A stretch of DNA of 48,368 nucleotides. Origin: Actinomycetota bacterium. Lineage in GTDB: Bacteria > Planctomycetota > Phycisphaerae > JAACET01. The notes beneath the pieces are model-generated. The model saw only the letters and a list, made by a program, of their open reading frames with translations. It did no database searches and was not told where the DNA came from. Both the position numbers and the translations under genes were made by a program. Location: contig JAACET010000009.1 in assembly GCA_011682385.1 (NCBI GenBank), positions 1 through 48,368 on the forward strand. Direction: 5' to 3'. Shown here piece by piece: positions 29,986-31,370 of this stretch (position 1 is its first letter; every line of letters starts with the position of its first letter).

Positions 29986-31251
29986 CTATCTCGCCGCCCG
30001 ACGACGGGATGCCAGAGCCAATGCCGCACAGGCCAACAAGATCACACTTGTCGGCTCGGGTACTACGATAATCAGATAGGAGTTGGCCGAATCGCGGGTA
30101 TCTACATACCAGTCATCGACAATCGTATCCGCGATGCTTGGGGAACTGGATGGTGAAAAGACACAGTTACCGAGGATGGCGTCCAAACCGCCGGGCATTT
30201 CGTCGTCGGGAATGACGAACACGGCCGTGTTAGCAATTATCAGCTTGTCGCCTTCGCGTCCCGCGCCGAGTTCCAGGGCCAGGGCATCAACATAATAACC
30301 CGGGCGGATGGCCTCCGCCTCACCGATACCCGCAACATTGATGGTGAAGTCTTCCAGAGCATTCAAGTCGATTCCCGAGGCCACTGCGAAGCTTTCGTTA
30401 ACAAAATTGACCGATGAGCCCGAATCGAACAATGCGGTTTTCGTAACGAACAGATCAGATTCCTCTTTGCGCACGGATATCGGAAGCATGGGATGCGCAC
30501 CTACGTCTACATCTTGCGGATCAGTGAACCAGTCTTGCATGGCTAGCGGCACATACAGTACATTCGGATCCCCCGGCTCAGGTGGGGTGTCTTCAAGTGA
30601 ACCAGCCATCGTGATATACGTCAAGCGAAGCCACTCAAGATGCTGTGGGTCCACGTGCAGCACCCTACCTTCCATCAAGCTCATGCCCAGGATATCGATG
30701 TCTATCTCACCAAAATCCAGGGTACGCAGGCTCGCGGCCATGGTAATTGATGGAGGTTCGCCGCCTCCGATCGGGCCATAGGCACTGTAGTAAGAGTGGT
30801 TCTCTGTGTCGCCAGAGGCCGCCGCCTGCCCAGCTACCATCAGCCGAACCGGCTCTGTGACAGCAAAGTCCTCGAATCCACCGAAGCCTTCATCAGTGAA
30901 TTTCACAGCCGGATATGACTGAAGCGGAATCCCCCCTCCACCGAGCAAGTAAGCCGTCTGTGTTGATACTCCCATTATGCAGGCAGAAGCCCCAGTGTCC
31001 GCCACGGCCAGCCAGCTCGTCGAGGGAAAGTCCGGCACGTACTCTCCCACGTACCATTGATCGTCTGCCGGATTAACCAAACCGTAGTACAGACCAACAT
31101 AGCCCAAGCCAACCGGTCCGGCAGACTCAAGATAGCTGTCCGCAGCGAAACCGCTGGAATTACACAGCAGCAAGGCTAGGCATAGACAGATTCCCTGCAG
31201 AAACCGCCTTGGCTGCGGGTAGACCGTCAGACAGACTCTAACTGTGTCCAT
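29986..31251 (-). CDS. PEP-CTERM protein with two pepsin-like lobes (putative aspartic peptidase)
   Basis: A 421-residue exported protein with an N-terminal hydrophobic signal (about 17-37, cleavage near AAD). Two matching halves are seen. Lobe one has AVADTGAS (Asp85) and later IDIDILGMSL (ILG at 187-189). Lobe two has ALFDSGSS (Asp276) and later LDAILGN (ILG at 359-361). A D-T/S-G motif paired with a hydrophobic-hydrophobic-Gly motif in each half, with the catalytic Asp residues about 190 apart, is the arrangement of bilobal A1-type aspartic peptidases. The end is VPEP (397-400), a membrane helix and RRRAAR, the PEP-CTERM exosortase signal. Activity is inferred; no annotated homologue was recalled. 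Confidence 0.72.
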   Translation of the reverse strand: MDTVRVCLTVYPQPRRFLQGICLCLALLLCNSSGFAADSYLESAGPVGLGYVGLYYGLVNPADDQWYVGEYVPDFPSTSWLAVADTGASACIMGVSTQTAYLLGGGGIPLQSYPAVKFTDEGFGGFEDFAVTEPVRLMVAGQAAASGDTENHSYYSAYGPIGGGEPPSITMAASLRTLDFGEIDIDILGMSLMEGRVLHVDPQHLEWLRLTYITMAGSLEDTPPEPGDPNVLYVPLAMQDWFTDPQDVDVGAHPMLPISVRKEESDLFVTKTALFDSGSSVNFVNESFAVASGIDLNALEDFTINVAGIGEAEAIRPGYYVDALALELGAGREGDKLIIANTAVFVIPDDEMPGGLDAILGNCVFSPSSSPSIADTIVDDWYVDTRDSANSYLIIVVPEPTSVILLACAALALASRRRAAR

Positions 31252-31341
31252 GAAGTTTCTCTCTCTCAGAAGCTCCAGGCTCTTTCAAACAACGGATTTA
31301 TAGATGAGGATATGGGGAAGCCTCTCTCTAAACCCGCAAGT

Positions 31342-31370
31342 AGTATAGCACATAAAGCCCGGTTAGTCAA
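31342..31370 (-). promoter_or_regulatory. Promoter of the PEP-CTERM peptidase gene
   Basis: Minus-strand TTGACT (31365-31370), a 17-bp spacer and TATACT (31342-31347), one of the best matches in the window. The leader is about 84 nt. Confidence 0.7.

Follow-up and report, generated by a model that had tools for sequence, protein, structure and literature searches.

A Predicted Exported Aspartic Peptidase with Two Retropepsin-like Lobes and a PEP-CTERM Signal in the Class Phycisphaerae

The minus-strand gene located at positions 29986–31251 of the window, which is the whole stretch of 48,368 nucleotides that was analysed, probably encodes an exported single-chain aspartic endopeptidase of the retropepsin-like type, which would be constructed from duplicated and fused PF13650-type lobes, processed by an exosortase, and active at the cell surface. 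A PF13650-type lobe is proposed to have been duplicated and subsequently fused into one gene, and as a result of this duplication and fusion a single chain would supply D85, D276, and both psi-loops, with a flap-like Gly-rich motif in each lobe. The signal peptide would then permit transfer across the inner membrane, and the exosortase of the same genome would cut the PEP-CTERM tail, leaving the enzyme released or anchored at the surface, where extracellular or envelope proteins might be cleaved. The motifs, their conservation, the homology of the lobes, the family, the sorting signal, and the presence of an exosortase were all established computationally.

Family members with two fused and clearly homologous retropepsin-like lobes offer a natural test case for a step in the origin of pepsin, for which duplication and fusion of a homodimeric ancestor has been proposed (discussed in PMC4140852 and PMC4814920). 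They also provide candidate surface peptidases for a bacterial group that is hard to study. No relevant paper on PEP-CTERM aspartic proteases or on planctomycete retropepsin-like proteins was found among the open-access papers searched, and two-lobed PF13650 proteins may already be present in annotated databases.

Gene and Motif Layout

The open reading frame starts at 31251, ends at 29986, and encodes 421 amino acids; the plus strand of the same interval is not open and contains many stop codons. The original prediction had named this frame and left its strand unstated, and the frame stands, on the minus strand, to which all feature coordinates below refer. Its designation as the coding sequence of a predicted exported two-lobed aspartic peptidase is based on the frame itself, the motifs, and a relative with 58% identity.

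The N-terminal lobe (residues 47–215, 30607..31113) harbors the first catalytic motif D85-T-G (30991..30999), the Gly-rich motif G122-F-G-G125 (30877..30888), and the psi-loop motif I187-L-G189 (30685..30693). The corresponding elements of the C-terminal lobe (residues 231–372, 30136..30561) are the second catalytic motif D276-S-G (30418..30426), the Gly-rich motif G308-I-G-E311 (30319..30330), and the psi-loop motif I359-L-G361 (30169..30177). The previously claimed pair of D[ST]G motifs 191 residues apart, each followed by I-L-G, was thus found as described. The two Gly-rich motifs around G125 and G308 presumably serve as flaps. In shuffled sequences that retained composition only, two or more D[ST]G motifs occurred in 7.3%, and 0.14% showed the whole layout when the limits on spacing were relaxed, so that the layout alone is suggestive and not decisive; the conservation of the motifs is a stronger test than such shuffles.

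Conservation and Distribution of the Family

The family alignment comprises 42 sequences, two of them half genes, and each key position is covered by 41. Asp85, Asp276, Gly189, and Gly361 are invariant (41/41 each), G125 is likewise retained in 41/41, and G308 in 40/41. The Gly of D[ST]G is altered in one sequence per lobe, giving DTA in lobe 1 of L033 and DSA in lobe 2 of L013. The closest homologue, which belongs to another family of the class, is 58% identical to the window protein; several others are distant, and many members share only about 20–30% identity with it.

This invariance bears on the reading that the protein has lost catalysis and acts as a surface-exposed binding protein with an aspartic-protease fold. 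Such a role would agree with the divergent body, the strongly acidic character of the window protein (net charge −41), and the motif decay in a relative from the same genus; however, it is unlikely, as a dead enzyme would hardly be expected to keep both Asp residues in 41 of 41 sequences, many of them at about 20–30% identity. For the peptidase reading, we infer catalysis, its pH optimum, and its substrate from these sequence features. The Ala residue following DTG in lobe 1 suggests, by analogy, activity nearer to neutral pH than that of pepsin, an argument which has been made for the Rickettsia protease APRc (PMC4140852).

The full-length profile, built from 20 aligned members, matches 175 of the 397 genomes sampled from the class Phycisphaerae, mostly once per genome, although a small number of the weaker ones may be false positives. 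The original prediction had called bacterial pepsin-like proteins rare; the window protein is no isolated case but a member of a class-wide family. An earlier and narrower profile, run on 294 genomes from across the phylum, matched 14 of them, in a few cases only through other PEP-CTERM tails (L028 and L030). One member was recovered outside the phylum, namely L033 from a Desulfobacterales bin, and no relatives were found in the viral contigs searched. Elsewhere in the phylum, L027 (G137:C17) has a DTG motif with a DSG further along the chain; it appears to be a different kind of protein, perhaps a second two-lobed type within PF13650.

Relationship to Known Aspartic Proteases

When the N- and C-terminal halves of the family alignment were compared by hhalign, E-values of 8e-7 and 3.5e-7 were obtained, depending on direction, and the N and C lobes are therefore homologous. 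PF13650 (Asp_protease_2) and PF13975 each match 20/20 aligned members at E up to 1, the best PF13650 match reaching 7e-19, and TIGR02281 (clan AA protease) matches 18/20 members at the same limit. The window protein itself matches PF13650 through its C-terminal lobe with an E-value of 4e-4 and 21.5 bits, under the curated cut-off of 24.3, and its N lobe alone gave no Pfam match; in relatives split into lobes, PF13650 matches were obtained for N as well as C lobes. None of the full-length NCBIfam models exceeded its own cut-off for this protein or its family.

The original prediction had combined a bilobal aspartic-peptidase layout with the pepsin (A1) family, and the two parts fared differently: the layout is supported by a motif in each of two homologous lobes, whereas the A1 assignment found no support in the search with the pepsin model PF00026, which matched 0/20 aligned members even at E up to 1. 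The same model served as its own positive control, detecting one A1 gene in the 294 phylum genomes at 1e-21, and the HMM search gave a positive answer on the retropepsin-like side through PF13650. A true A1 member, comparable to the shewasins of Shewanella, would account for the two lobes, the 191-residue Asp spacing, and the hydrophobic-hydrophobic-Gly motifs. Since the spacing between the two catalytic Asp residues ranges from 178 to 230 across the family, the value of 191 is not diagnostic of pepsin, and the A1 reading is made very improbable by the PF00026 result, by a Cys count of just two in the mature protein, and by the fold search described below, in which retropepsins appeared without pepsin. 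The A1 gene of the control, L070 (G240:C48:1-294), is located at the start of a contig from a bin whose contamination is 7%, and may be a eukaryotic contaminant.

In the PDB, the best match of the family profile was 9iy9_A ('Exported protein', E 0.0075), at the DTGA motif, followed by weak matches to Ddi1 and retroviral proteases. A phmmer search of the PDB with the window protein and a search with the profile of three dockerin-type relatives returned unrelated matches only.

The AlphaFold model of the window protein together with four relatives reached a mean pLDDT of 34.6; with the relative L031 as first row the mean was 40.1, parts of the C lobe reached 50–79, and most of the length of this lobe lay at about 55–79. 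In a Foldseek search with this low-confidence L031 model, APRc was the top match, and retroviral proteases (HIV-1, FIV) occurred throughout the best 50 matches, each over about 120 columns, with pepsin absent from those 50. The query coverage was low (TMq about 0.2), which indicates that these matches cover one lobe only, the L031 C lobe, and it is for this lobe that the low-confidence model supports a retropepsin fold. As to the arrangement of the two lobes, we infer a closed cleft that joins D85 and D276. Taken with the lobe homology, the 20/20 matches to PF13650, and the failure of PF00026, this weak fold search favors a fused retropepsin-like pseudo-dimer over a homologue of pepsin.

The resemblance of this pseudo-dimer to known systems is partial in each case. 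With the clan AA proteases described by PF13650 and TIGR02281, it shares the DTGA-type motif, the Gly-rich flap-like motif, and the hydrophobic-Gly psi-loop, but those profiles describe one lobe, whereas the exported chain here unites two lobes that have diverged. The DTGA motif is likewise common to APRc (RC1339) and the retroviral proteases (A2-like), which provided the best fold matches of the weak L031 model. These enzymes are, however, one-lobe homodimers, in contrast with the single chain that carries both lobes here, and they differ from the many members of the present family that bear a PEP-CTERM or dockerin tail. Pepsin A1 and the shewasins are similar in possessing two lobes, each with a D[TS]G and a psi-loop Gly, yet A1 differs in the PF00026 result. 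Shewasins have no signal peptide, and shewasin D in its native form resides mainly in the cytoplasm (PMC4814920), unlike the window protein with its signal peptide and PEP-CTERM signal.

Export and Sorting

The predicted signal peptide, read from the sequence, occupies residues 1–37 (31141..31251) and consists of a basic start, a hydrophobic core, and a putative GFA-AD cleavage site. At the other end of the chain, the PEP-CTERM sorting signal (residues 397–421, 29989..30063) contains VPEPT, a hydrophobic stretch, and SRRRAAR. The NCBIfam model TIGR02595 matched residues 397–418 with 18.8 bits against a cut-off of 16, and with 21.8 bits in a genome-wide search, and the Pfam PEP-CTERM model fell just short of its cut-off (19.7 against 20.7). 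The host genome contains 29 PEP-CTERM signals and one exosortase match (E 2e-53), which keeps EACSG, NLLRI, and FH, which we take to be the exosortase Cys, Arg, and His motifs. The proposed PEP-CTERM/exosortase route of export is therefore borne out at the level of sequence, by a signal over the NCBIfam cut-off and an exosortase in the genome. The PEP motif, hydrophobic stretch, basic end, and accompanying exosortase are those of PEP-CTERM substrates, from which the protein departs in its peptidase-like payload.

At their C termini, relatives carry either PEP-CTERM tails or dockerin-like repeats, so that attachment outside the cell appears to be a common theme. In a subfamily consisting of L012, L021, L023, and L026, dockerin-like repeats at the chain end replace the PEP-CTERM tail and may represent another route to extracellular attachment.

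Locus, Candidate Promoter, and Possible Gene-Body Replacement

On the same strand, the peptidase gene is preceded by queC, a gene for a radical-SAM protein (queE-like), and a gene for a PTPS protein (queD-like), and is followed by purA, uppS, and cdsA; the neighborhood contains no exosortase or other PEP-CTERM genes. This setting is relevant to a variant which differs from the main reading in the substrate alone, namely that the enzyme would be dedicated to the processing of exosortase substrates or envelope proteins, in a PerP-like manner, rather than to general digestion. The 29 PEP-CTERM signals in the genome and the occurrence of about one copy per genome would be in keeping with such a role, but the lack of linkage to exosortase or PEP-CTERM genes, with purA, uppS, cdsA, and queCDE as neighbors, speaks against it, and we give this variant perhaps one chance in several, below the broader surface-acting peptidase.

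A promoter-like site, TTGACT-17-TATACT with TG before the −10 (extended), was located at 31342..31370, downstream of the queD-like gene and ahead of the peptidase start codon, and shows 10/12 matches. In G002, a relative of the same genus, the hexamers are kept and TTGACT-17-TATAAT occurs at the same place. Because the scan of the region returned three promoter-like sites against 1.4 expected from shuffles, it is the conservation in G002, not the scan, that supports a promoter. The gene had been predicted to have a promoter of its own, and a candidate of this kind, kept in a same-genus relative, was indeed present. Downstream, a conserved segment comprising the 5' leader and the first 24 codons (MDTVRV...; 31180..31285) is 80% identical to G002 at the DNA level across 107 columns. 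The idea that promoter and leader form a repeated genomic cassette was rejected, as only the locus itself matched, besides a 15-base chance match.

The flanking genes in G002 have the same order and are about 60–80% identical, and the G002 copy of the gene is split between two contig ends (L067 7488-8202 and L068 9432-10052). In the DNA comparison of G002 with the window, no significant match was detected between the first 24 codons and the purA side, and the gene bodies share about 32% protein identity, as against the 60–80% of the neighbors. Trees of both halves place the window protein with relatives from another family (f10) with bootstrap values of 99–100%, and the G002 halves cluster with L003–L005 (95 for the N half and 86 for the C half). 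The f10 relative in G042 sits at a different locus, as none of the genes in its 13-kb context match the neighbors in the window. For the window and G002, the simplest reading is that one of the two species may have exchanged the gene body without a change of locus; the alternative would be very rapid divergence. On a broader and more tentative view, which we consider possible but somewhat doubtful, a retropepsin-like lobe would have been duplicated within the Phycisphaerae lineage independently of pepsin, yielding a surface enzyme whose body is swapped between lineages under the native promoter and leader.

The D[ST]G motif of lobe 2 is replaced by FDSAAM in L013 (G002:C25); with this DSA motif, the enzyme of that species may have an altered activity or none at all.
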